DNA from: Candidatus Saccharimonadota bacterium
GTDB taxonomy: Bacteria; Patescibacteriota; Saccharimonadia; Saccharimonadales; UBA4665
Length of the DNA: 43,036 bases
Reading direction: 5' to 3'
NCBI GenBank assembly: GCA_003153395.1
Contig: PLYP01000003.1
Coordinates: forward strand, 86,558-129,593
The position numbers were made by a program, and so were the translations under genes. Under the pieces are notes generated by a model. The model saw only the letters and a list, made by a program, of their open reading frames with translations, was not told the origin of the DNA and ran no database searches. Shown here one piece after another: positions 1-10,541 of this stretch (its first letter is position 1; every line of letters begins with the position of its first letter).

Positions 1-25
1 CGTTCGAGTCGCGGCGGGGATACCA
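1..25 (+). tRNA. 3' end of a tRNA, cut by the window edge
   Basis: The first 25 bases read as the end of a tRNA: the last two bases of a T-stem, loop TTCGAGT, T-stem CGCGG, acceptor strand CGGGGAT, discriminator A and an encoded CCA at 23-25. The matching 5' half lies outside the window, so the amino acid cannot be named. The bases that follow (TAAGCATTATAA) resemble the bases that follow several of the cassette repeats downstream. Confidence 0.7.
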
Positions 26-186: not shown

Positions 187-1140
187 ATGCCAACAGATCC
201 AGGAAAAATCCCCCAACATGAGCAAACTATAGCAGTGACACGACTGTTGACTCCCGGCGATATAGTTGATTTGGACCAAGGTGCAATTGAATACGCTAAT
301 AGCATGTTGCCTCCTCTAGCTCAGGGAGGTAATATCCTACCTGCTTTGCTAGAAGGTAGCATTGAGCGTCGTCCTGAAGAAGCTAAGGCCCTGGCTCTGT
401 ACTATCAGAAACTTATTAGCCAGGCGATCGGCTTAACTAGTACTGAGCCGAATACAAACACGGCTGAGATTATAGACAACACAACCACAAGATTGTCTGC
501 TAAGGCACTATCTGATCCTGATTTTATTGAAACATTAGTGCAAAATATGCACGCTGCTGAGCTAGAGCTTTCTAGCCAACCGTCAAGTCGACGTAGTTTG
601 CTATCGGCCATTCATGAACGTCGACGAGCAAAGGATAGGTCTAAACGTAAAGCCGAAGTACAAGCGTTGCATGATCGTAATTTTGAATCCACTACATCAC
701 GAATAAATGTTAACGAACTGAAAGCTGACGATGAAGTAACTTTTAGATTGGGTGACAAAAACGCAGAGCTTGAATTAACTGGGAGAGTAGTGGGCTTTAA
801 AAAAGTCGAGGTTGATCGAAATAAGAAACATAAAACTCTCGTCTTAGCATTTGAAGTAGAAAAAGAGGAACGTGATCTTAAAGAAGCCCGTGAATTTTTA
901 GTGCCACCCAGAGAGTCTAAAAGAGTGATATATATTATGGGGAGTGAAGGGAATGGGTTTATACCAGACGGTACTATCCAAAGTGGATCGTCGCTAAGCA
1001 TTGTGGGAAGTGATGGTTTTAGACAAACCTATGGATCATATGTAGATATAAAAAAACCTGGCCAGCAAAACTTATCGTTTGGTCGGCCAAATGTCTTACA
1101 ATTGTCAGTTAACGGAACTGAAATGCTGCCTCAGCGTTAA
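187..1140 (+). CDS. Unknown soluble protein, 317 aa
   Basis: I do not recognise this protein. It has no signal peptide or membrane segment. The N-terminal half (to about residue 130) looks helical. A strongly basic stretch follows (RERRRAK-type, about 140-160), then a charged beta-rich part (about 175-240) whose DDEVTFRLGDK and GRVVGFKKVEV segments look like a small barrel. The C-terminus is rich in Gly and Ser. It starts after a good promoter without an SD and is the only gene between the tRNA end at 25 and the repeat at 1272, so it may be the first cassette of the array. Confidence 0.6.
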   Translation: MPTDPGKIPQHEQTIAVTRLLTPGDIVDLDQGAIEYANSMLPPLAQGGNILPALLEGSIERRPEEAKALALYYQKLISQAIGLTSTEPNTNTAEIIDNTTTRLSAKALSDPDFIETLVQNMHAAELELSSQPSSRRSLLSAIHERRRAKDRSKRKAEVQALHDRNFESTTSRINVNELKADDEVTFRLGDKNAELELTGRVVGFKKVEVDRNKKHKTLVLAFEVEKEERDLKEAREFLVPPRESKRVIYIMGSEGNGFIPDGTIQSGSSLSIVGSDGFRQTYGSYVDIKKPGQQNLSFGRPNVLQLSVNGTEMLPQR

Positions 1141-1271: not shown

Positions 1272-1300
1272 GTTCCACTGCGACTCTATATGGCATACCA
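1272..1300 (+). repeat. Cassette repeat, copy 1 (29 bases)
   Basis: It begins GTTCCACTGCGACTCTAT and ends GGCATACCA. It shares length, the GTTC start, the CGACTCTAT core and the CCA end with the copies downstream. A perfect inverted repeat, ACTTAT-AACC-ATAAGT, follows at 1304-1319. This copy lies outside the dense part of the array, between the 317-aa gene and the PH-domain gene. Confidence 0.5.
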
Positions 1301-1357
1301 AATACTTATAACCATAAGTTTTTAGCGTATTAAATCGAATAACTGTAAAATATACTT

Positions 1358-1936
1358 ATGGCCGAAGCCAAACAAACAAAAGAAAAGTATTTCGAAGATC
1401 AATTCGATGACGAAGATGTGCTTTATGTCTTTCACAAACACCCTATAGTAATGCGAAAAGGTCTAGTATTTGGAATGCTTGGACCACTCGTAGGCATTTT
1501 ACCCACAGCATTTAAGCCTGATCTAGGATTCGGTTATTTCTTTGGTGGCTTAGCGGTTGGATTCTTATTAGGATTGCTAATTTTTGCTCCAGGATGGATC
1601 GGTTGGCACTTCAGTGTGTTTATAGTAACTGACCAGCGATTTATTCAAATAACACAAAAAGGCTTATTCCATAGAGCTGTTGCCGATCTTAGCTTAAGTC
1701 AGATACAATCCGTGAACTACGATATTTCGGGACTGGAGGAAACTCTGCTTGGATTTGGTACAATAAAGATGCAGACATATGTGGGAGATTTAACAATACA
1801 TAATGTCCATCACCCTGCGAAAGTTCAAAAGAAGCTGCTATCGATACTGCGAAAAGAAGGTGTAAGTATTTCCCAGTACCCAAACGTCCAATCAAATAAT
1901 AATGTACATGAAGAAACTGAAGCTCAAGAAACCTAA
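1358..1936 (+). CDS. Bacterial PH-domain membrane protein (YdbS/YdbT-like)
   Basis: The 192-aa protein has an acidic N-terminus, two hydrophobic segments (about 35-57 and 63-85), then a bPH_2-type domain. FIVTDQRFIQITQKGLFHR and the DLSLSQIQSVNYD segment followed by GFGTIKMQT are the family hallmarks (residues about 88-150). Such proteins sit in the membrane and their biochemical role is poorly defined. TAAAAT at 1346-1351 lies 6 bases before the ATG, which suggests a leaderless mRNA. The end overlaps the next gene by 35 bases, so the two are probably co-expressed. GC content looks ordinary for this genome. Confidence 0.75.
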   Translation: MAEAKQTKEKYFEDQFDDEDVLYVFHKHPIVMRKGLVFGMLGPLVGILPTAFKPDLGFGYFFGGLAVGFLLGLLIFAPGWIGWHFSVFIVTDQRFIQITQKGLFHRAVADLSLSQIQSVNYDISGLEETLLGFGTIKMQTYVGDLTIHNVHHPAKVQKKLLSILRKEGVSISQYPNVQSNNNVHEETEAQET

Positions 1937-2993
1937 ATTATCCATTCCAAGTAGTAAACTACTCAAACGTTCTCCATCAGTCGAAGAGCGTGTTAGTGAT
2001 GCTATAAGCAATGTTCCAAGAATTACCAACGATACCGTTGCAGAACATCGAGAAGATGTGTTATCCGGAGCTAGGAAATATATATATCCGTTGCAGCATT
2101 CTAAGCATAGTGTCGTACGTATCTCCGTTTCACTATTCATTATTGTTATAGTTGGTTTTTTTGTAATATGCGGTTTAAGTTTATATAAATTTCAAAGTAC
2201 ATCCGGTTTTATATATGGAGTAACGAAGATCGTTCCATTTCCGGTAGCTAAAGTTGGTCCTCGTTGGGTAAGTTATGAGTCGTATTTATTTGAGTTAAGA
2301 CGAAATATGCATTATTACGCTACTCAGCAGCAGGCGAATTTCTCTACAAAAGACGGAAAAGCGCAACTAATTAGATTAAAAGAACAGGCTATGAACCAAG
2401 CAATACAGAATGCTTTAGTTAATGAATTAGCGGGAAAGAATAAGATTAGCGTTAGCGGCCAAGATGTAAATAACCAGTTAATACTTGTTAGGAGTGAAAA
2501 TAGACTAGGCAGTAGTGACAGTGTATTCAAGCAAGTGTTAAGTCAGTACTGGGGTTGGAGTGAATCAGACTTTAAGAGAGAACTTAGCCAGCAACTGCTT
2601 CAACAATCAGTAGTAGCTAAGCTGGATACAGCTACAACATCAAAAGCTAGTCAAGTACTTAAACAACTAAGGTCAGGAGCTGATTTTGCTACACAGGCAT
2701 CACAAAACTCACAAGACTTATTAACAAAAAACAACGGGGGACAATATCCAAACCCAATTACACTTAATGATCAGCAAATTTCTCCTATTATTTCTCACGC
2801 GCTGTTTAAATTATCTCCAGGACAAATATCCGGTGTAGTTAACACAGGATTTACTCTAGAGATATTAAAAGTTATGGATAAAAGTGGCAATAGCTTACAT
2901 GGTAGTCATATTCAATTTAACCTACAGGACGTAACCAAATACACGCAACCCTTAGAAACAAAACAGCACGTTCACAGATATATAAAAGTCTAA
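1902..2993 (+). CDS. Membrane-anchored SurA/PrsA-like peptidyl-prolyl isomerase homolog
   Basis: A basic N-terminus is followed by one membrane segment (about residues 75-98), then a SurA-N-like helical region with QAMNQAIQNALVNELA. The rest is a parvulin-like (PpiC) region: GADFATQASQNSQD, a Gly-Gly before the PNPITL segment, and HALFKLSPGQISGVVNTGFT. The order fits an extracytoplasmic folding factor. Parvulin active-site residues are not clearly conserved, so it may be a chaperone without isomerase activity. Two in-frame ATGs (1902 and 1908) are possible and neither has a clear SD. The start lies inside the PH-domain gene, so translational coupling is likely. Confidence 0.65.
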   Translation: MYMKKLKLKKPKLSIPSSKLLKRSPSVEERVSDAISNVPRITNDTVAEHREDVLSGARKYIYPLQHSKHSVVRISVSLFIIVIVGFFVICGLSLYKFQSTSGFIYGVTKIVPFPVAKVGPRWVSYESYLFELRRNMHYYATQQQANFSTKDGKAQLIRLKEQAMNQAIQNALVNELAGKNKISVSGQDVNNQLILVRSENRLGSSDSVFKQVLSQYWGWSESDFKRELSQQLLQQSVVAKLDTATTSKASQVLKQLRSGADFATQASQNSQDLLTKNNGGQYPNPITLNDQQISPIISHALFKLSPGQISGVVNTGFTLEILKVMDKSGNSLHGSHIQFNLQDVTKYTQPLETKQHVHRYIKV

Positions 2994-3070
2994 CATTGAT
3001 ATCTTAATTTGATTTTTACTGATCAAGTTGCTATGATTACCCCTGTTGCTATGGCGGTAATAGCTTATTT

Positions 3071-3147
3071 GGGCTCGTAGTGAAGAGGCCTATCACGTCT
3101 CCCTGTCACGGAGAAGATCGCCGGTTCGAATCCGGTCGGGCCCGCCA
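3071..3147 (+). tRNA. tRNA-Asp(GTC)
   Basis: A full cloverleaf can be drawn. The acceptor GGGCTCG pairs with CGGGCCC. The anticodon stem TCTCC/GGAGA encloses CTGTCAC with anticodon GTC. The T-arm is CCGGT-TCGAA-TCCGG style, the discriminator is G and CCA is encoded at 3145-3147. Its last 24 bases (GTTCGAATCC then CCCGCCA) are the closest cellular sequence I can see to the cassette repeats, which makes it a candidate anchor for the array. Confidence 0.95.
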
Positions 3148-3188
3148 AAAATTTTCGTCAACTGTTTGTCGGTTGCCGACATGCAATA

Positions 3189-3225
3189 AGTCGAGTGGCT
3201 TCCTAGGGGCCAACTCGACTTTTTT
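3189..3225 (+). terminator. Intrinsic terminator after tRNA-Asp
   Basis: AGTCGAGT-GGC pairs with GCC-A-ACTCGACT around an 8-base loop and is followed by six T. It would end the tRNA-Asp transcript before the first multi-gene cassette. Confidence 0.85.
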
Positions 3226-3364
3226 GTTACCTAGATACCAGTTCGAGCCGAGAAAAGACATCAATTGTCGTCGCTCCTGCTCGTTTGCCATAAGCTTCAT
3301 TGTATTCTCACTGCATTGATTATGAAATTAGTAAGCACCGGCGTAATCGGAGTAAAATGGAGGT

Positions 3365-4183
3365 ATGGCGTTAAAGGATTTCACCTACTTAGACTTTGAG
3401 AGAATTCGTTCTTACCTGGCACAGATGGACGGTAAGCTTAGTGAAGACTTTTCTGAAACTAGCCAACATGCGACTGGTACTAAAGTTACGGGTGGAACTG
3501 GTGCGCTCACGAAACTGATTGCAAGCGTCGAGGCGGAAGGAAACTACCTGTATACCAAATCCCATTCTGAAACATCAAGTTTACACCACGCCATATTTGA
3601 CACATTTGAAGCAAAGCTAAGAGATAAAGAGCTGGTTGGCGACCTTGCGGGCGATAAGCCTTTTGCAGAAATTATTTGCAGGCTAAAAGTAGTCGACTAC
3701 GAACTCTTGTCGCGTCAGTTCCTAGCTACTGCAGAAGTCATGCCCTTGATTACAAGTATTGCGGCGAGGAGCGCAAATGCAAACCAGACAACCAAACAAG
3801 CGAGGGCGGATGAGAAGGCCCAGGTTAAGTTAATTAAAGACATAGCAAACGCAATAGGTATGTTGTTTGAAGGTGTTAAGCTACTTCAGCTTGTAAGCGG
3901 TGATGGCAAGATTATTGCCCAGGCTTCATTAGACGAGGACTTGCTGCCACAGAAATCACTATTCTTTGCCAACAATAACGAAGTATTGCCGCAAGAGTGG
4001 ACGGTATTCTGCTTAAAGCAAGCACAGGTCGATCCGGTGATGGTGATTGACGATACTGGCAATGACTTCTCAAAAAGTATTAACGGTGCCGTTGTTTCTT
4101 TGCGTGCTTTACGTCAAATTCTACTGCCGCCTATAGAGACTCCAAATGTCACACCAATAGCTATATATAAGAGAATTAGCTGA
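3365..4183 (+). CDS. DUF6414-like protein, 272 aa
   Basis: The start (KDFTYLDFERIRSYLAQMDG) and the following stretch with LHHAIFDTFEAKL resemble the DUF6414 family as I remember it: a YLD-x-x-R-x-x-S-x-x-x-Q opening, then a low-complexity Gly/Thr stretch, then a helix. Function is unknown; no membrane segment is visible. A GGAGG lies directly before the ATG, too close for ideal spacing, but an in-frame TAA at 3353 excludes other upstream starts. It is the first of three same-strand genes with GC content clearly above the housekeeping genes. They look transferred and form one unit after tRNA-Asp. Confidence 0.55.
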   Translation: MALKDFTYLDFERIRSYLAQMDGKLSEDFSETSQHATGTKVTGGTGALTKLIASVEAEGNYLYTKSHSETSSLHHAIFDTFEAKLRDKELVGDLAGDKPFAEIICRLKVVDYELLSRQFLATAEVMPLITSIAARSANANQTTKQARADEKAQVKLIKDIANAIGMLFEGVKLLQLVSGDGKIIAQASLDEDLLPQKSLFFANNNEVLPQEWTVFCLKQAQVDPVMVIDDTGNDFSKSINGAVVSLRALRQILLPPIETPNVTPIAIYKRIS

Positions 4184-4195
4184 GGTACTTCACCC

Positions 4196-5482
4196 ATGGG
4201 CCCTGTTACTATATTCGATAAATCTGCACTCCAGGCACTTAGCATGGATGAATCCGTGTGGCTTGATGCCTTTACTATGGGCAATGTAACACCGTTATTT
4301 TATGTTGAGACACTCGCTGACCTAGAAAAGTCAGTTAAGGCTGGCAGTACTCCGGAGAAAGTTGTCGGCATGTTGGCACATAAAACAGGATTTCACGCCG
4401 TGCCGAACGTGTACCATAGGTCAATCATGCTCGCAGAGCTTGCTGGTGAACCACCTATCCCCATGGACGGCAGACCTGTAATTGGCGGTGGTGTGCCCAG
4501 GCTGAACGATGATGGTACCACTGCTATACATTTTGATGAATTCCCCGAAGCGGCAGCGCTAAACCGCTGGCAGAATGGTGAGTTTGAGGAAATTGAGCGT
4601 GCAGCTGCAAAACAATGGCGTGCTGACTTAGCTGCACAGAATACTGAGGAGCAAATACAGCTTGTCAAAAACATCTTACCAATAAGCGTTAAGATATCTA
4701 ACCTTGTGCAGTTAAAGGAGTTTATTGATAAATTCTGCGAAACTACGGACAGACATGTTTTACAGTTGGTTCTGCAGCTACTAGATGTCCCTGAGCGGGG
4801 CCGGCCGATAATCATGCAAAGGTGGCTGGATGCAGGTAGCCCCTCATTAGAGAAATTTGCGCCATATACTACGCACGTATTTAAGGTTGACCTACTCTAT
4901 TACCTCGGCATGCTTAGGGGCTTTATCTCTGACGTCAGGAAAAGTAACAAGGCAGACTTAGCGTACCTTTACTATCTTCCGTTTTCGATGGTATTTTTAT
5001 CCGGTGATAAACTTCATGCCAGTACAGTGCCGTTATTTTTGCGGCCAGACCAAAGCTTTGTTAAGCTTGACGAAATTGAACCAGCGCTTCAGGAGATTGA
5101 TGCACACTACGATGCACTGCCTGATGAAGTTAAGGCGCTGGGTATCATGCGGATAGCAGGCTATCCCCCAGCTCATATGGATAACGTCATCACTCAACTA
5201 TGGAATAAACATATGCGGCCCGATTGGCGCGAGATTTCAAAGCAAGAAGAGGCGGGTCGTTTTAAGCCACGAGAAGAAGAGCCTGAGGACAAGGATTTTA
5301 TAAAGGAAATTAACAAAAAGCATGACACTGCCGTAGACTTACCTGATGGTATGGAAGTGCCTAGTGTTGATGATGTACAACATGTGATGCTCAAGCGGAA
5401 GATGCCTGTACAGAAAGGAAAATGGCGAATGATATCCAAAGACGTAGAGGAAAAAATTAAAGAAAGTAATGTTGATGAATGA
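4196..5482 (+). CDS. Unknown protein with a PIN-like N-terminus, 428 aa
   Basis: The opening VTIFDKSALQALSMDESVW followed by FYVETLADLEK resembles a widespread uncharacterised family. An acidic residue after the first strand and a downstream ETLxDLE suggest a PIN-like nuclease fold, but I infer this only from motif spacing. The middle is mostly helical. The C-terminus is charged, with a Glu/Lys-rich segment (about 345-375). It starts 12 bases after the DUF6414-like gene and is probably co-transcribed with it. GC in one sampled row is about 50%. Confidence 0.5.
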   Translation: MGPVTIFDKSALQALSMDESVWLDAFTMGNVTPLFYVETLADLEKSVKAGSTPEKVVGMLAHKTGFHAVPNVYHRSIMLAELAGEPPIPMDGRPVIGGGVPRLNDDGTTAIHFDEFPEAAALNRWQNGEFEEIERAAAKQWRADLAAQNTEEQIQLVKNILPISVKISNLVQLKEFIDKFCETTDRHVLQLVLQLLDVPERGRPIIMQRWLDAGSPSLEKFAPYTTHVFKVDLLYYLGMLRGFISDVRKSNKADLAYLYYLPFSMVFLSGDKLHASTVPLFLRPDQSFVKLDEIEPALQEIDAHYDALPDEVKALGIMRIAGYPPAHMDNVITQLWNKHMRPDWREISKQEEAGRFKPREEEPEDKDFIKEINKKHDTAVDLPDGMEVPSVDDVQHVMLKRKMPVQKGKWRMISKDVEEKIKESNVDE

Positions 5483-5521
5483 GGACGTTAATAACTCACT
5501 CCCTAGAACCACACGCGAACT

Positions 5522-6172
5522 ATGAATTACCAACCTGGCCCTAAATACAATGTCCGGGCATTTGACTCGGTCGAAAACGCATATCTAGATGCCATTGAGC
5601 CCTATATTGGTGATAAACGTTTGTTTGTAAGTGGTCCCATGCACAAAACTCTAGGCCTACGCGCCCGCGAATTATTTGGGCTAATCCTTATTGCACATGT
5701 ACATAATTACCTTACGGGTGGTAAATGGGTGCCTGGTACTGACCCCTTAGGTCATGATGGTGTCATTATGCGTATAGATGACCCTCGCATTAGAGGTTCA
5801 GGACGCGCGTACGAACAGGTCTTTGTGCCTGAGGTAGACCCTAAAGAGCCAGATCAGACCATTGAAGAGGGAGTACTAAAAGCGATAGAGCGTAAAGCAG
5901 ATAGAGGCGAGGCCTACCGTGCTAATACTGACCTCATAGTTTTCGTTAACCGGTCCGGAAACATAGGAGATTTACGAGCTTTAGCGGATGCAGCGGGTCA
6001 GTTGGGTTATGAGGCAGTGTATATGATTGCTCATAATGTGAAGATAGACAGCGTAGACGAGATATCGTATTTGTGCGTAATCCTAAACAGTCCAACGTTT
6101 ACTCGTGGCCCACTGAGTGTACGCATCAATAGAAAAAATGGCATTGGGAGTGTTGAACGCGTTATGTCTTAA
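5522..6172 (+). CDS. Unknown protein, 216 aa
   Basis: I do not recognise the family. Visible features are a conserved-looking centre with GHDGVIMRIDD followed by YEQVFVPEVDPK, a hydrophobic strand TDLIVFVN, and no signal or membrane segment. A D-G-x-I strand followed by an E-containing strand and Lys could fit a PD-(D/E)XK-type nuclease core, but this is weak. It is the third gene of the unit after tRNA-Asp, 39 bases after the 428-aa gene, and shares its higher GC content. The first cassette repeat of the dense array follows 47 bases later. Confidence 0.5.
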   Translation: MNYQPGPKYNVRAFDSVENAYLDAIEPYIGDKRLFVSGPMHKTLGLRARELFGLILIAHVHNYLTGGKWVPGTDPLGHDGVIMRIDDPRIRGSGRAYEQVFVPEVDPKEPDQTIEEGVLKAIERKADRGEAYRANTDLIVFVNRSGNIGDLRALADAAGQLGYEAVYMIAHNVKIDSVDEISYLCVILNSPTFTRGPLSVRINRKNGIGSVERVMS

Positions 6173-6219
6173 GAATCAAAGTGCGGCGTGTACCCATGTA
6201 GCGAACCGCTCATATAATA

Positions 6220-6249
6220 GTTCCAAACCTGCAACGCTACGGCCCGCCA
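6220..6249 (+). repeat. Cassette repeat, copy 2 (30 bases, CCA-type)
   Basis: It begins GTTCCAAACC and ends CTACGGCCCGCCA, then AAGCATAGCG. AACGCTA inside the repeat and TAGCGTT just after it form a 7-base inverted repeat around CCCGCCA. Confidence 0.75.
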
Positions 6250-6265
6250 AGCATAGCGTTATTAG

Positions 6266-6535
6266 TTAGAAAACACCCGATATATGGCAATATTTAGCTG
6301 CTTCAGTAGGGTCAACTGGTACATAACCTTTAGCTGACGGCTGAGTAGGGGAACTTGGAGTAGGAATTGTCTCTAGCTTAGCTTTTATTGGTTTTGAACA
6401 ACTATACTGGTTGTTAACGTCATAATAGCCATTTACCAGTTTGTACTGGTAGTTGTGGATTACGAGTCCGGCAATAACCCCAGCTAGTATTATCACAACG
6501 CCAAATGCCAAGAGAAGTTTACTTATAGTCATCAT
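6266..6535 (-). CDS. Small membrane-anchored protein, 89 aa
   Basis: An N-terminal membrane segment (about residues 5-28, LLLAFGVVIILAGVIAGLVI) is followed by about 60 extracytoplasmic residues with a Pro/Ser/Thr-rich stretch and two Cys (YSCS and KYCH) that could form a disulfide. No family is recognised. It is the only gene between two repeats and runs against the repeat direction. Upstream on the minus strand, TTGCTC-17-TAGAAC lies 7 bases before the second ATG, so the leaderless start is probably that ATG (MTISK). Confidence 0.55.
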   Translation of the reverse strand: MMTISKLLLAFGVVIILAGVIAGLVIHNYQYKLVNGYYDVNNQYSCSKPIKAKLETIPTPSSPTQPSAKGYVPVDPTEAAKYCHISGVF

Positions 6536-6570
6536 TTACGTTCTACCAAAATAATCACCTAAGAGCAATA

Positions 6571-6599
6571 GTTCGAAAATCCGACTCTATGCCCCGCTA
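6571..6599 (+). repeat. Cassette repeat, copy 3 (29 bases, CGA-type)
   Basis: It begins GTTCGAAAATCCGACTCTAT and ends GCCCCGCTA. The promoter of the next gene starts five bases later. TAAGT and ACTTA form a loose inverted pair just after it. Confidence 0.75.
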
Positions 6600-6603
6600 A
6601 GTA

Positions 6604-6632
6604 TTGACATTTTATACCACTTATGCTAGAAT
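6604..6632 (+). promoter_or_regulatory. Cassette promoter directly after repeat copy 3
   Basis: TTGACA at 6604-6609, a 17-base spacer and TAGAAT at 6627-6632 give a near-consensus sigma-70 promoter. It begins within five bases of the repeat end, so each cassette brings its promoter at its 5' edge. Confidence 0.8.
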
Positions 6633-6657
6633 ACCTATCTGTAAGGTAAAAACAAAA

Positions 6658-7593
6658 ATGTCAGAACGCATAAATCACACTGCCGATAACAATGTTCAAA
6701 TAATAACTCACCTTGGCGAGCAAGGTCTTCAGCATGTGTTACATATGGGGAATGAGACTATGAGTACCACAACCACAGCTATAGTTGAGGTAACTCCAGC
6801 ATCGACTGGGAGGATTGACGATGGAGGCAGGGCCGAAGCCATGGCCTACTCGCTGGATCGTACTTATGATTTTGCAGCTGAACATGAACGCCGCGCTGCG
6901 AGTCCGAATGTAAGTGCTTCCAGTCGTAAAAATCATATGCAGACTGTAGAGGGACAGCGGACCAACGCTGAAAAGTTTGCCGAAAATGCCGGAAAGCGCT
7001 ATGACGAGGGACAACAGCGTAAGGCTCGCCAAGAAGCTACGAGTGACGCTACAGTCAATATCGAGAAGTCACTTGAAGGCAAGACATTGAGCGAGAAGTT
7101 AGATGTTATCAAGAAGGGCTTAGCTGCTGCGGAACCGGCTGAGCGCGAAGAGACCTTGAATGAGCAAGAAAAGCAAGGACATCTGGTAAAAAAAGGTGCC
7201 ATGCGGACTGCTTTCAGTAATTTGGTAAAAGCTAATCCACAAATCGCCCCGGGGCTTTATATAAGCGTCCTTACAGAATATGTTGGCCAAGCAATGACTG
7301 AGGGAAAATCACTTGAAGAGCTTGATGAAAACCTCTTCCCAATCTTTGACCTCAACAACAGCACCCATTTTATGCTTGATGAGCTGACAAGCGTTATCAA
7401 TCAGAGCGAAAATGTCGGATCTGCATTTATGGATCGAGCAAGATACTCCGTCCTGGCGAGTTTTGATTCTCAGAAACAGAGTACGCAGCCCAGAGTAGGG
7501 GATAATGGCTATATCGATTTGGAAGAGGCACGTATCAATCTGCAAAGAATAATGATGTATCGCGACACTAGAGACCACGACGAGTCGCAATAA
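6658..7593 (+). CDS. Unknown hydrophilic protein, 311 aa
   Basis: I chose the ATG at 6658 because the longer reading from TTG at 6604 would translate the promoter itself. TAAGGT about 10 bases upstream may serve as SD. The protein is soluble, rich in Ala, Glu and Asn, and mainly helical, with an Arg/Lys/Glu-rich middle (about residues 75-190) and a folded-looking C-terminus with ISVLTEYVGQAM and LDELTSVIN. No family, catalytic motif or membrane segment is recognised. It is the largest single-gene cassette of the array, with GC above the housekeeping genes. Confidence 0.6.
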   Translation: MSERINHTADNNVQIITHLGEQGLQHVLHMGNETMSTTTTAIVEVTPASTGRIDDGGRAEAMAYSLDRTYDFAAEHERRAASPNVSASSRKNHMQTVEGQRTNAEKFAENAGKRYDEGQQRKARQEATSDATVNIEKSLEGKTLSEKLDVIKKGLAAAEPAEREETLNEQEKQGHLVKKGAMRTAFSNLVKANPQIAPGLYISVLTEYVGQAMTEGKSLEELDENLFPIFDLNNSTHFMLDELTSVINQSENVGSAFMDRARYSVLASFDSQKQSTQPRVGDNGYIDLEEARINLQRIMMYRDTRDHDESQ

Positions 7594-7624
7594 CATTTGC
7601 AATATCCTACCTAGAGTTAAAATA

Positions 7625-7654
7625 GTTCCAGACTTTCTCTGCCACGGTCCGCCA
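7625..7654 (+). repeat. Cassette repeat, copy 4 (30 bases, CCA-type)
   Basis: It begins GTTCCAGACTTTCTCTGCCA and ends CGGTCCGCCA, followed by AGCATAAAC. ATAAA-CAC-TTTAT follows immediately. Confidence 0.75.
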
Positions 7655-7711
7655 AGCATAAACACTTTATTTTAACGTCCTTTTAACTCAACATAGTCTA
7701 TAATTTGTATA

Positions 7712-8014
7712 GTGAAAGCAATTTGGAACGACGTCGTTATTGCGGATGCTCCAAAAGAGGAGCTTATTTACATTGAGCGCAACTGGTATTTCCCGCCCAA
7801 CCGGGTTAACAAGGACCACCTTCAGGATAGCCCGACTCCTTATACATGCCCATGGAAAGGAGAGTGCCAATACTTCAATGTCGGCAAAGATGATAACTGG
7901 AGCCAGGATAACGCCTGGACATATCCTAAACCTAAACCTTCAGCCATAGACATCGTCAAAAAAGACTTTAGCAACTACATAGCCTTTTGGCGAGATGTAA
8001 AAGTTACGGAGTAG
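7712..8014 (+). CDS. DUF427 family protein, 100 aa
   Basis: The sequence matches the DUF427 pattern well: KAIWNDVVIADA, then YFPPNRVNKDHL, CPWKGECQYFNV, AWTYPKPKPSA and YIAFWRDVKV. This is a small beta-barrel family common in actinobacteria and cyanobacteria with no settled biochemical role. The start is GTG, and TATAAT at 7699-7704 lies 7 bases upstream, so the mRNA is probably leaderless. It is a single-gene cassette between repeat copies 4 and 5. Confidence 0.85.
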   Translation: MKAIWNDVVIADAPKEELIYIERNWYFPPNRVNKDHLQDSPTPYTCPWKGECQYFNVGKDDNWSQDNAWTYPKPKPSAIDIVKKDFSNYIAFWRDVKVTE

Positions 8015-8040
8015 TATCTAAACCTACTGCGAGACAAATA

Positions 8041-8067
8041 GTTCGAAAATCCGATTCTATGCCGCCA
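8041..8067 (+). repeat. Cassette repeat, copy 5 (27 bases, CGA-type)
   Basis: It begins GTTCGAAAATCCGATTCTAT and ends GCCGCCA, two bases shorter than copy 3 but otherwise nearly identical. AGCAT-CATAAC-ATGCT follows at about 8074. Confidence 0.75.
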
Positions 8068-8101
8068 AACATAAGCATCATAACATGCTATCATTGCCTG
8101 T

Positions 8102-8362
8102 ATGGACAGTGAAGTTTTGGGCTTTATCGCAGGTTCTTTAGTTGCAATTTCATTACTGCCACAAGTAATTAAATCTATCAAGACCAGGTCAACTAATGAT
8201 ATATCGCTGCAATGGAGTGTTATCAACATAACTGGACAAGTACTATGGATTTGTTACGGAGTAGTAATTAGTAGTGCAGCTTTGTACATAATGAGTGGAA
8301 TTACGCTTGTGATGGCTTCAACTATGCTTATTTTAAAGATAAAGTATGGCTTAAATAGGTAG
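8102..8362 (+). CDS. SemiSWEET-type sugar transporter, 86 aa
   Basis: Three membrane segments (about residues 4-22, 38-57 and 60-80) and the PQ-loop motif LPQVIKSIKT in the first segment identify a SemiSWEET (MtN3/saliva half-unit), which works as a dimer for facilitated sugar movement. ISLQWSVINITGQVLW is typical of the second segment. TATCAT lies 7 bases before the ATG, so it is probably leaderless. The stop codon is a few bases before repeat copy 6. Confidence 0.88.
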   Translation: MDSEVLGFIAGSLVAISLLPQVIKSIKTRSTNDISLQWSVINITGQVLWICYGVVISSAALYIMSGITLVMASTMLILKIKYGLNR

Positions 8363-8366
8363 AATA

Positions 8367-8395
8367 GTTCTAATATCCGACTCAATAGCCTGTCA
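8367..8395 (+). repeat. Cassette repeat, copy 6 (29 bases, diverged CGA-type)
   Basis: It begins GTTCTAATATCCGACTCAAT and ends AGCCTGTCA. The core TCCGACTC is kept and the end is CTGTCA rather than CCGCCA. It follows the SemiSWEET stop by four bases. Confidence 0.7.
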
Positions 8396-8441
8396 AAACG
8401 CTTATGATTAAATTTATTGCTGATATGCTAATATTAGCTTT

Positions 8442-8873
8442 ATGACATGGCTGCCACTAGCGTTCATAGCTCCTCTCTTATTCGCTGTTTACCAAGCATT
8501 GTCTAAGCTACTTCCTAAAGGAACATCTGTATATCTGGTCAATGCCTATGCATCACTCATAGGATTGCTGTTGATGTTAGCACTGTATTTTGTGACAAGT
8601 CATGGTGCAAAATCTGTACGTTTGAGTCCGAAAGCTCTTTATCTAGCAATAGGTATAGGATTACTGATTAGTCTGGGCAATTATGGGATAATTAAGGCTT
8701 TTTCCCTTGGTGCTCCTCAGTCTCAATTCTCGGCAATCATGTATCCCACTCTCATTACCTATGCGCTTATAATCGGTTTAATAGCATTTCATGAGAAGCT
8801 TCACATCGTACAGTTATTGGGTATCGTATTGGCGGGCACAGGTCTATTTTTGATTGTGTACTTTAGGAAATAG
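8442..8873 (+). CDS. EamA/DMT-type transporter, single-domain, 143 aa
   Basis: Five hydrophobic segments over 143 residues and a C-terminal EKLHIVQLLGIVLAGTGLFLIV are typical of one EamA repeat. Full-size DMT exporters have two, so this is a short form that would have to pair with itself or a partner. The substrate is unknown. TAATAT lies 7 bases before the ATG, embedded in the palindrome GCTAATATTAGC. The TAG stop is also the first bases of the next repeat (TAGTTCC). Confidence 0.75.
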   Translation: MTWLPLAFIAPLLFAVYQALSKLLPKGTSVYLVNAYASLIGLLLMLALYFVTSHGAKSVRLSPKALYLAIGIGLLISLGNYGIIKAFSLGAPQSQFSAIMYPTLITYALIIGLIAFHEKLHIVQLLGIVLAGTGLFLIVYFRK

Positions 8874-8902
8874 TTCCACACCTCCTCCGCCACGGCCCGT
8901 CA
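8873..8902 (+). repeat. Cassette repeat, copy 7 (30 bases, CCA-type)
   Basis: It begins GTTCCACACCTCCTCCGCCA and ends CGGCCCGTCA. Its first base is the last base of the upstream stop codon, and a promoter starts two bases after its end. Confidence 0.75.
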
Positions 8903-8904
8903 AA

Positions 8905-8933
8905 TTGACAAAATACTATATTTATGATACTAT
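8905..8933 (+). promoter_or_regulatory. Cassette promoter of the PpnP-like gene
   Basis: TTGACA at 8905-8910, a 17-base spacer and TACTAT at 8928-8933. The -10 box ends 6 bases before the ATG at 8940, so transcription probably begins at or next to the start codon. Confidence 0.8.
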
Positions 8934-8939
8934 GCTTTT

Positions 8940-9308
8940 ATGACGCACGCTTTTAATTTGCCTGATACTCGTGGCGGTCCGGATAATCCTTATTTTGACG
9001 GCCAAGTCGTAAGTTATAATTTCACAGCTGACGGTTATGAAGCCAGACTAGGTATTATCCAGCCTGGCTTTGAAGGAACATTTCCTGCTGATGAAGGTGG
9101 AGAAAACATTACTTTGATCGATCCAAAAGAAGGTAGTCAGTTAACTATAGAAGTTATTGGCAAAGACGGTAATGTTGAAACAAGCCATAGTTTAGTTGAA
9201 GAAGGAGATGCTTTATCAGTTCCTGGCGGCAGACAAATGAAAGTTTCAACTGCAGGAGCTGTTGTTAGATACGTCTGTGTTTATCCTGGCCGCCCGGTAA
9301 AGAAATAA
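8940..9308 (+). CDS. PpnP-like cupin (pyrimidine/purine nucleoside phosphorylase family)
   Basis: NPYFDGQVVSYNF, ARLGIIQPGFEGTF, an ENITLID strand, GDALSVPGG and a final YVCVY match the small cupin family of E. coli PpnP (DUF1255), which splits several nucleosides with phosphate. The family is about 95 aa; this one carries an extra N-terminal dozen residues and a longer loop around residue 65. A salvage role would suit a reduced genome, but substrate specificity cannot be read. Leaderless single-gene cassette. Confidence 0.75.
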   Translation: MTHAFNLPDTRGGPDNPYFDGQVVSYNFTADGYEARLGIIQPGFEGTFPADEGGENITLIDPKEGSQLTIEVIGKDGNVETSHSLVEEGDALSVPGGRQMKVSTAGAVVRYVCVYPGRPVKK

Positions 9309-9336
9309 TTGTACGTAGCTCTTTTTCTATAAAGCA

Positions 9337-9366
9337 GTTCCAGACATTCTTCGCTACTGCCCACCA
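9337..9366 (+). repeat. Cassette repeat, copy 8 (30 bases, CCA-type)
   Basis: It begins GTTCCAGACATTCTTCGCTA and ends CTGCCCACCA, followed by GGACGCTTATAC, which matches the ACGCTTATGA after copy 6. Confidence 0.7.
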
Positions 9367-9386
9367 GGACGCTTATACTTATTTAA

Positions 9387-9830
9387 TTATCGAGTCTCAT
9401 AAACCACAGCCAAGCTAGCAGCTATTACTATAAGCTGGGTTAACACACCCCACATTGAACTAGTTTCTTGTTGAATCTTGCAGTGCCAATCCCAGTACTT
9501 CTTAAGCAAACCTTGTTTAAGCCTTGGCACAAGCACCATTATTACATCTAGATCAGGTGCATTTGCCATTGTTGCACCAAGCCATATCGTAGATATATGA
9601 TTTGGCTGCCAATGGGCAACTAGCCACACTAAAGTAATGGCAAGTGCTATGTCTATAGGTATACGTATATATGTTTTCTTAGTTGGTATATATGGAGCTA
9701 GGGTTTCTTGCCAATGAGGGATACTGTCCAAAACAAAATGACTGCCTATTGACAATGGAATTACTACTATTGGGTTAGGCAATAAAGCTCCTATTGCAGC
9801 TCCGGCCATAGAGTGTGGTGTAGTTAACAT
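9387..9830 (-). CDS. YdjM-like membrane protein (metal-dependent hydrolase-like), 147 aa
   Basis: The opening TPHSMAGAAIGALL, the segment IGSHFVLDSIPH and APDLDV carry the His and Asp residues seen in the YdjM/DUF457 family of inner-membrane putative metal-dependent hydrolases. Four hydrophobic segments are visible (about 8-25, 58-74, 80-98 and 125-142). No substrate is known. It is the second array gene that runs against the repeat direction. On the minus strand TAAAGT lies 6 bases before the ATG, again suggesting a leaderless start. Confidence 0.65.
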   Translation of the reverse strand: MLTTPHSMAGAAIGALLPNPIVVIPLSIGSHFVLDSIPHWQETLAPYIPTKKTYIRIPIDIALAITLVWLVAHWQPNHISTIWLGATMANAPDLDVIMVLVPRLKQGLLKKYWDWHCKIQQETSSMWGVLTQLIVIAASLAVVYETR

Positions 9831-9856
9831 ATACTTACTTTAGCATTCTAGATAAA

Positions 9857-9885
9857 GTTCGGAAGTCCAACCCTATGTCCCGCCA
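9857..9885 (+). repeat. Cassette repeat, copy 9 (29 bases, CGA-type)
   Basis: It begins GTTCGGAAGTCCAACCCTAT and ends GTCCCGCCA. AAGTGG-8-CCACTT follows directly, overlapping the next promoter. Confidence 0.75.
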
Positions 9886-9887
9886 AG

Positions 9888-9916
9888 TGGACAAAGTACC
9901 ACTTTTATGGTAATGT
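9888..9916 (+). promoter_or_regulatory. Cassette promoter after repeat copy 9
   Basis: TGGACA at 9888-9893, a 17-base spacer and TAATGT at 9911-9916. The ATG at 9923 follows 6 bases later. Confidence 0.7.
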
Positions 9917-9922
9917 TTGCTT

Positions 9923-10387
9923 ATGGCTGTTAATTATCCTGGGGTAACCTCACGTATCTTAACTGAGTTTGACTGGTATCCAGAAACTCTCCAAATAGGG
10001 GGAGACACCCCAGCCGTAAGATTTGATAATATTTTTAGCATTCTATCCACTATAGCTCCAACTTTAGTTGTAGGTGAGCTACATCCAACGTTGGTTATTT
10101 CAAGTTCGTATCCTAGGCATGGACAAGTAGCACAAGGACTTTCGGACTGGCATCAATACCTAGCAGAGCAATGTTCGGAAGTGTACAGTCACTTAACTTC
10201 TGACCCTGAAGGCCCGACCTTGGATAGGGAGAAAGCTAACACCGATAAAGAACTGCAAACCTTACAGGCCGTAAGACGTGGTGTACGACGTGCAATGAAT
10301 ACTCATTATCGATTTGCTCGAGATAGCAGTACCCGTAAGCCTCTGAGCGCCGTCTCTTCACTGTACCCTAAAGAACTCTTTGAATAG
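9923..10387 (+). CDS. Unknown protein, 154 aa
   Basis: I chose the ATG at 9923 over the TTG at 9917 because the promoter places the transcript start near 9923. No family is recognised. The N-terminal half has beta-like hydrophobic stretches (AVRFDNIFSILSTIAPTLVV, PTLVISSSYP). The C-terminal half is helical and basic (LQAVRRGVRRAMNTHYRFAR). No membrane segment is seen. The TAG stop overlaps the start of the last, truncated repeat. Confidence 0.55.
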   Translation: MAVNYPGVTSRILTEFDWYPETLQIGGDTPAVRFDNIFSILSTIAPTLVVGELHPTLVISSSYPRHGQVAQGLSDWHQYLAEQCSEVYSHLTSDPEGPTLDREKANTDKELQTLQAVRRGVRRAMNTHYRFARDSSTRKPLSAVSSLYPKELFE

Positions 10388-10405
10388 TTCGAGAATCCGT
10401 CTGAC
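10387..10405 (+). repeat. Cassette repeat, copy 10, truncated
   Basis: GTTCGAGAATCCGTCTGAC matches the first part of the CGA-type repeat, but the CCCCGCCA end is missing and a short reading frame begins at once. This marks the right end of the recognisable array. Confidence 0.5.
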
Positions 10406-10541
10406 ATGATTGAATTTCGTAAACCTAGTTTGGACACACTACAACCAGGAATTGTTTCTTTGAAGAGCAAGACATTTGTTGGACCCTGAAGGCCAACGTA
10501 CTTTTAAGCCAATTGTCGTAAATTGGGCCAAAGAAATATAG
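10406..10541 (+). pseudogene. Short broken reading frame after the last repeat
   Basis: ATG at 10406 opens 27 codons ending at a TGA inside GGACCCTGAAGG. Dropping one T there lets the frame continue smoothly for about 17 more codons (GQRTFKPIVVNWAKEI) to TAG at 10541. The most economical reading is a 44-residue protein broken by a one-base insertion, or a sequencing error. No family is recognised. Confidence 0.3.

Follow-up and report, generated by a model that had tools for sequence, protein, structure and literature searches.

The locus described here lies within a stretch of 43,036 nucleotides, hereafter the window, from a Candidatus Saccharimonadota bacterium (GenBank assembly GCA_003153395.1, contig PLYP01000003.1, positions 86,558 to 129,593 of the forward strand), in which a tRNA-Asp gene is followed by a row of small, unrelated genes separated by a short repeated element. 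Saccharibacteria are tiny host-dependent epibionts with genomes near 0.9 Mb, and the route by which they gain genes is poorly understood. An earlier note on this DNA had proposed an integron-like array of gene cassettes at this position. The repeated elements delimit an array spanning 6217-10407, in which gene cassettes carry a site at the 3' end of the gene, likewise in the relatives. Element coordinates refer to the first base of an ATAGTTC-type site in window numbering; G-, L- and C-numbers denote genomes, genome stretches and contigs, G000 being the genome of the window. The array consists of the following parts.

3071..3147, +: tRNA-Asp(GTC) (ARAGORN, Rfam), with GGGCCCGCCA as its 3' end, which forms the attI-like end of the array
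3148..6249, +: cassette 1, comprising three genes (DUF6414, 3365-4183; 4196-5482; 5522-6172) and closed by a type B site; the first gene follows the tRNA without an intervening site
6217..6249, +: site 1, type B (ATAGTTCCAAACCTGCAACGCTAC + GGCCCGCCA)
6266..6535, -: cassette 2, 89-aa predicted membrane protein, inverted; no Pfam match
6568..6599, +: site 2, type A
6658..7593, +: cassette 3, 311-aa protein with a relative at 33% identity in a G208 array
7622..7654, +: site 3, type B
7712..8014, +: cassette 4, DUF427 (NTP_transf_9) protein (Pfam E 4e-21)
8038..8067, +: site 4, type A, shortened by a 2-base deletion
8102..8362, +: cassette 5, SemiSWEET/PQ-loop transporter
8364..8395, +: site 5, type A
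8442..8873, +: cassette 6, EamA-type half transporter, with the TAG of site 6 as stop codon
8870..8902, +: site 6, type B
8940..9308, +: cassette 7, Ppnp-like (pyrimidine/purine nucleoside phosphorylase) protein (Pfam E 2.4e-6)
9334..9366, +: site 7, type B
9387..9830, -: cassette 8, 147-aa predicted membrane protein, inverted
9854..9885, +: site 8, type A
9917..10387, +: cassette 9, 156-aa protein, with the TAG of the terminal half-site as stop codon
10384..10407, +: terminal half-site ending the array, a type A arm that lacks the tRNA tail

The repeats in the window are real. Eight complete copies of 30-33 bp were located at 6217, 6568, 7622, 8038, 8364, 8870, 9334 and 9854, all on the + strand. 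In a leave-one-out weight matrix scan of both strands at all window positions, the seven gap-free copies all ranked 5-8, outranked by other copies only, and the weakest copy scored 22.5 bits against 6.8 bits at the next best non-copy position, in line with the earlier statement that the window holds none elsewhere. The copy at 10384, previously called truncated, is indeed a left arm lacking the tail and ranked fifth of all positions with the A-arm matrix. Thus, of the ten unidirectional copies counted in the earlier note, eight full copies and one half copy stood, all on the + strand, while the copy at 1272 proved degenerate, as described below. The copies comprise subtype A (6568, 8038, 8364, 9854 and 10384), in which a site reads ATAGTTCGRAAATCCGACTCTATG plus tail, and subtype B (6217, 7622, 8870 and 9334), in which it reads ATAGTTCCANACNTCNNNCGCTAC plus tail, the frame ATAGTTC...CCGCCA being common to both. 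From 6250 onward, each interval holds one small gene, and those at 6266-6535 and 9387-9830 are inverted while the repeats are not, just as had been noted; the reported overlap with stop codons also held for sites 8870 and 10384. The extent assigned to the array was correct for these intervals, but it missed the 3.1-kb stretch from tRNA-Asp to the first site, which is the three-gene cassette. An Rfam scan of the window region returned nothing beyond tRNA.

Each site was found to be a composite of a constant 24-bp arm (A or B) and the final 8-9 nt of the tRNA gene upstream, and the former description of the repeat as tRNA-end-like was therefore apt. For the searches in other genomes, model R1 comprised the first 24 nt of type-A sites and model R2 the 26 nt of type-B arms, the right part being excluded. 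The tails after the arm matched the 3' end of the closest tRNA encoded upstream on that strand, namely Asp (GGCCCGCCA), Arg(GCG) (TTACACCA), Asn (CCGAGCCA) and Gln (CCCAGCCA). Among the 47 sites having an upstream tRNA within 9 kb, 25 fitted their own tRNA more closely than at least 95% of the ends of tRNAs of other isotypes taken from the fetched loci, against an expectation of about 2. Across 41 sites, tail-tRNA identity ranged from 0.80 to 0.98 over positions 1-7 counted from the end, stood at 0.51 for position 8 and 0.73 for position 9, and fell to 0.07 for position 10; the placement rule favours positions 1-6 but not positions 7-10. This collapse at position 10 indicated that 7-9 nt are derived from the tRNA and that the arm is not.

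No signal of attC-like folding was obtained for 39 A and 17 B sites on both strands (mean z -0.1 to 0.26). The cassette end following CCA carried almost no information (profile columns 32-43) and no inverted copy of the arm. The site itself supplied the stop codon of the upstream open reading frame, by its own TAG, in 17 of 84 cases, and another 20 sites started 2-5 nt past one. In relatives, A and B sites, or a decayed B site and an A site, were also observed about 45-90 bp apart with no gene between them (L020 918/1005 and 1578/1622, L090 2658-2740); these possibly represent empty cassettes or double sites. In addition, the cassettes of the Arg array in G008 are interspersed with a repeat of about 100 bp (L020 179-270, 2302-2397 and 3148-3236), which terminates in fragments of the 3' end of tRNA-Arg(GCG) and may be either a third type of site or an element that has decayed.

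The arms alone, irrespective of the tail, pointed to the same tRNA genes. The nearest upstream same-strand tRNA was tRNA-Asp in 25 of the 27 type-B loci, and in the type-A loci it was Asp in 9/15, Arg(GCG) in two and Asn in two, counts that include loci fetched for tRNA-Asp and thus express consistency rather than an independent rate; lower-scoring A variants were found behind Gln. In a cleaner sample, the newly fetched R2 loci, tRNA-Asp held this position in 14 of 15, the odd one out being the C11 array of G000. No site was found between a tRNA and the first cassette gene. Searching the 393 genomes of the order with the arms yielded matches in 58 genomes with R1 (E<=0.1) and in 55 with R2 (E<=0.02); at a stricter cut-off (R1 E<=0.01 or R2 E<=0.005), about 50 genomes remained by hand count, with about 6 expected by chance, so that the array is seen in approximately 13% of these genomes. 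An exact A-arm search of 84,980 species genomes hit Candidatus Saccharibacteria only, and a phylum-wide sample of 380 genomes gave one match outside the order. The repeat is not scattered genome-wide, an outcome that the earlier note had named as speaking against cassettes: model matches in G000 were confined to the window array and one second array on another contig, C11 (L228 2443-4960, genome approximately 52.4-54.9 kb). The latter contains a cassette of about 2.5 kb with a Trp-repressor-like gene, hisG and hisD, a cargo that is unusual for a host-dependent bacterium.

A few neighbouring observations concern other tRNA-associated sequences. In G019, an array (L024 13545, - strand) starts after a gene bearing a bare T-arm-like sequence, ACAGGGTTCGAATCCTGT, with no complete tRNA. 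A match beside tRNA-Met in G004 was dropped, as the element around it carries a serine recombinase-like gene. Serine recombinase genes adjoin tRNA genes at L026 8500-9760 (G004) and G000:C2 79437-80987, and belong to a different type of tRNA-associated element within this group of bacteria.

The content of the arrays proved to turn over at a fixed place. G031, which belongs to another genus, shares with G000 the gene order pili, Xer, ndk, tRNA-Arg, PH, SurA and tRNA-Asp, and after tRNA-Asp the two arrays have no cassette gene in common; different genes at the same locus, which the earlier note had listed as a supporting sign for close strains, were present here between genera. The content at this locus also differed among the G247, G163 and G138 arrays. 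The opposite expectation, a fixed gene order among close relatives, was contradicted both by this comparison and by arrays within one genus, which differ by swapped cassettes.

The most telling case is a cassette encoding a MazE/AbrB-like protein and a PIN protein (VapBC-like), which immediately follows tRNA-Asp in G026:C6 and occupies the second position in the array of G245. The two copies (L191 4526-5220 and L192 1062-1756) are 96.0% identical over 695 nt, whereas the flanks showed identities of 0.55 (200 nt upstream of the tRNA) and 0.57 (600 nt downstream) against 0.62 for a shuffled control. The alignment starts at the last 8 nt of the tRNA or of the preceding site and stops at the end of the closing site. 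Pairwise locus comparison revealed edges at -6 to -8 nt also in G247/G138, G208/G273, G163/G273, G026/G138, G208/G026 and G026/G035, and the homology edge lies 6-8 nt before the CCA end whether the copy follows a tRNA or a site. These edges placed the exchange point inside the tail, so that the arm closes its cassette at the 3' end, an arrangement also found in integrons. Cassettes have thus been exchanged between genera with exact boundaries in the tail.

At tRNA-Asp, a 1.4-kb difference between G163 and G026 was considered as a cassette insertion and rejected, since it is an insertion element with an rve-type transposase (L105 4493-5892, G163), which lies exactly between tRNA-Asp and the first cassette and is absent in the 99.8% identical G026 stretch. 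G026 (contigs C6, C9 and C13) contains two different tRNA-Asp array loci, one of them 99.7-99.8% identical to G163, and this bin probably mixes two species.

With regard to cargo, the cassettes in relatives encode YafQ, VapC/PIN, MazE, PemK, GNAT, NUDIX, Fic and DUF218 proteins, and those in the window comprise the DUF6414 operon, DUF427, SemiSWEET, EamA, Ppnp-like and proteins without an assigned family. The YafQ, VapC/PIN, MazE, PemK, GNAT, NUDIX and Fic cargo resembles that of chromosomal integrons. PADLOC gave no convincing defence match for the window cassettes. Unrelated cassette genes at window 9886-9930 and L024 12600-12641 (-) were found to share the same promoter-like start, AAGTGGACAAAGTAC..CTTTTATGG, which suggests exchangeable promoter modules at cassette starts.

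These observations make the existence of a cassette system very likely, and we regard it as probable that site-specific recombination has assembled mobile gene cassettes into an array behind a tRNA gene at this locus, with Xer as the likeliest enzyme. The earlier view of a cassette array made by a site-specific recombinase, other than a classical integron, was upheld. A cassette consists of its start, usually one gene or a toxin-antitoxin pair, the 24-bp arm and the 8-9 nt tail, the tail corresponding to the 3' end (acceptor strand plus CCA) of the target tRNA. In the mechanism that we propose, the circular form would carry arm, tail and cassette start in succession, and the recombinase would exchange strands between the tail and the tRNA 3' end. 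Insertion, preferentially directly behind the tRNA, would rebuild an intact tRNA and leave arm and tail to close the new unit, and older cassettes would be shifted outward with their own closing sites, so that the array would grow from the tRNA. The tRNA 3' end would then be the counterpart of attI, and arm plus tail that of attC.

The sole tyrosine recombinase (PF00589) encoded in G000 is a XerC/D-like protein of 320 aa (C5:84957-85919), whose gene lies 0.6 kb outside the window, which starts at 86558, and 3.7 kb from tRNA-Asp. The former statement that no integrase is present held for the window itself, and this nearby gene had been missed. Most array genomes likewise possess one PF00589 gene (XerC/D-like). 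The co-occurrence of a tyrosine recombinase, suggested earlier as a check, is true but of little weight, the gene being the universal Xer. As Xer also occurs in genomes in which no array was detected, its proximity to tRNA-Asp probably goes back to an ancestor and the arms show no likeness to dif, we place the single Xer-type recombinase acting in trans as the array enzyme somewhat short of an even chance.

Several points weigh against the cassette array with Xer as its enzyme. Xer is equally present in genomes without detected arrays, which renders its co-occurrence of little informative value. The arms do not resemble dif, the 28-bp architecture of which (11+6+11, inverted) is not matched by the site consensus; the canonical dif pattern showed no excess over a reversed control in 40 genomes, and no arm was found as a lone site elsewhere in the window genome. 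No circle or excision event was observed. The array on C11 has Asp-type tails, yet lies 6 kb behind tRNA-Pro, and may have been displaced by rearrangement. Moreover, the genomes are species representatives, mostly metagenome assemblies, and many are fragmented.

The same array could instead be served by another enzyme, supplied in trans by a helper phage, a plasmid or a large serine recombinase element. Xer is universal rather than array-specific, and large serine recombinases occur in several array genomes, some of them near tRNA genes; however, PF00239 was absent from 8 of the 20 array genomes tested (G008, G031, G171, G208, G247, G082, G150 and G071), most array genomes have no second PF00589 gene, and neither the exact A-arm pattern nor the strict B-site pattern was matched in 2.9 million viral contigs. 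We consider a non-Xer enzyme unlikely, though still a serious rival. Target-site duplications of 8-9 nt are common, and the cassettes might accordingly be short transposons whose tail, a copy of the target of just this length, duplicates the tRNA end. Such target-specific transposition is improbable, given that only one cassette end is conserved, the other carrying almost no information and no inverted arm copy, and that no transposase was encoded in the cassettes examined.

The remaining explanations account for less of the evidence. Since the sites are direct repeats of about 33 bp, homologous recombination between them could shuffle ordinary islands, but the tRNA junction shares merely 6-9 nt with a site and the cassette edges are nevertheless exact, which makes this very improbable. 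The earlier note had offered an old degenerate repeat family as the plainer alternative, to which an immobile transcription or RNA-processing element may be added. The copies do diverge, and a terminator hairpin follows some G008 sites; the sites, however, show no excess folding, and the exact tail breakpoints, the 96% identical cassette between non-homologous flanks and the tails tracking the local tRNA contradict immobility, leaving this alternative scarcely credible. A classical integron, in which IntI acts on attC and attI, would fit the array layout with one gene per cassette, a site at the cassette 3' end and toxin-antitoxin cargo. Its sites, however, should fold, whereas here the arm is conserved in sequence and a tRNA stands in place of attI; no IntI was found in the window genome, where the lone PF00589 protein scored 140.8 with TIGR02249, far below the cut-off of 265. 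The locus is not an integron because it has no IntI, no foldable site and a tRNA instead of attI, and we give this last explanation almost no chance.

Compared with known systems, the arrays constitute an integron-like gene-collecting system without integron parts, a variant of tRNA-targeted cassette islands. With integrons (PMC8946536, PMC2727003) they share tandem cassettes, a site at the 3' end, mixed orientation, toxin-antitoxin and acetyltransferase cargo and a fixed entry end; in contrast, the attI next to intI is replaced by the 3' end of a tRNA gene, the site is conserved and non-folding, and some Saccharibacteria cassettes carry promoter-like sequence. Additive flexible genomic islands with tRNA-targeted gene cassettes have been described in Candidatus Actinomarinales (PMC7771536) and Candidatus Methylopumilus fGI-2 (PMC10872708), and they are alike in having small cassettes behind tRNA genes in streamlined genomes, insertions marked by direct repeats of the tRNA 3' end, content varying at the same locus, partial replacement and inter-genus exchange. 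Their repeat is described as a portion of the tRNA, such as the final 20 nt of tRNA-Lys (PMC7771536, PMC10872708), whereas the Saccharibacteria repeat joins 8-9 nt of tRNA to a constant 24-bp non-tRNA arm that is common to four tRNA species and many genera, and the cassettes are mostly single-gene and about 0.3-1 kb apart. To our knowledge, neither account mentions a constant non-tRNA arm, dense single-gene arrays or several tRNAs with matching tails.

Tycheposons, as characterised in PMC10872708, are likewise tRNA-anchored and tyrosine recombinase-associated, but measure 4-200 kb and are linked to a recombinase gene, whereas the present cassettes measure about 0.3-3 kb, mostly 0.3-1.2 kb, and have none. 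The dif/pdif modules of Acinetobacter, moved by the housekeeping Xer system (PMC12907356), are similar as small modules carrying toxin-antitoxin and other genes between short bounding sites; their sites alternate in orientation and are dif-like (11+6+11 bp), while those here all point one way, measure about 32-33 bp, are not dif-like and possess a tRNA tail. The open-access literature held no account of such arrays in Saccharibacteria or Patescibacteria, and to this extent the earlier suggestion of a system new for Patescibacteria stands, although tRNA-targeted cassette islands are known elsewhere.

The array thus offers a defined, searchable gene-capture locus, in which place, tag and unit are recognisable in any assembly and from which cargo can be gathered in a systematic way. 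The system points to another way of solving the integron problem, with the tRNA end, necessarily kept intact, as the entry site, and also suggests that specificity is set by an exchangeable short tail. We tentatively propose an integron-independent mode of gene capture in Saccharibacteria with several tRNA entry sites, a universal 24-bp arm combined with a tRNA-specific key of 8-9 nt, and, as integrase, the housekeeping Xer of cells lacking any other tyrosine recombinase. The short, defined sites make the recombinase question open to laboratory testing.

Upstream of tRNA-Asp, the window also contains the end of another tRNA gene and the degenerate copy mentioned above.

1..25, +: tRNA-Arg 3' end, a second attI-like tRNA end (L002 10528-10582), immediately preceded by an NN assembly gap
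187..1140, +: probable single cassette behind tRNA-Arg, gene of 317 aa
1269..1300, +: degenerate site with an Arg-type tail (..GGCATACCA), supported by tail and context

The copy at 1272 received no support from the arm matrix (rank 76), and its end, CATACCA, resembles the tRNA-Arg end ..GGGGATACCA at window 1-25, not the tRNA-Asp end. Two N bases lie inside this tRNA-Arg, right before window base 1 (L002 10555-10556), and the assembly was therefore joined there. The interval from tRNA-Arg(CCT) to the PH gene measures 1.3 kb in the window genome, against only about 43-115 bp in G031, G171 and G215; because it is empty in these three relatives, the gene at 187-1140, judged from its sequence context, is probably a single inserted cassette.

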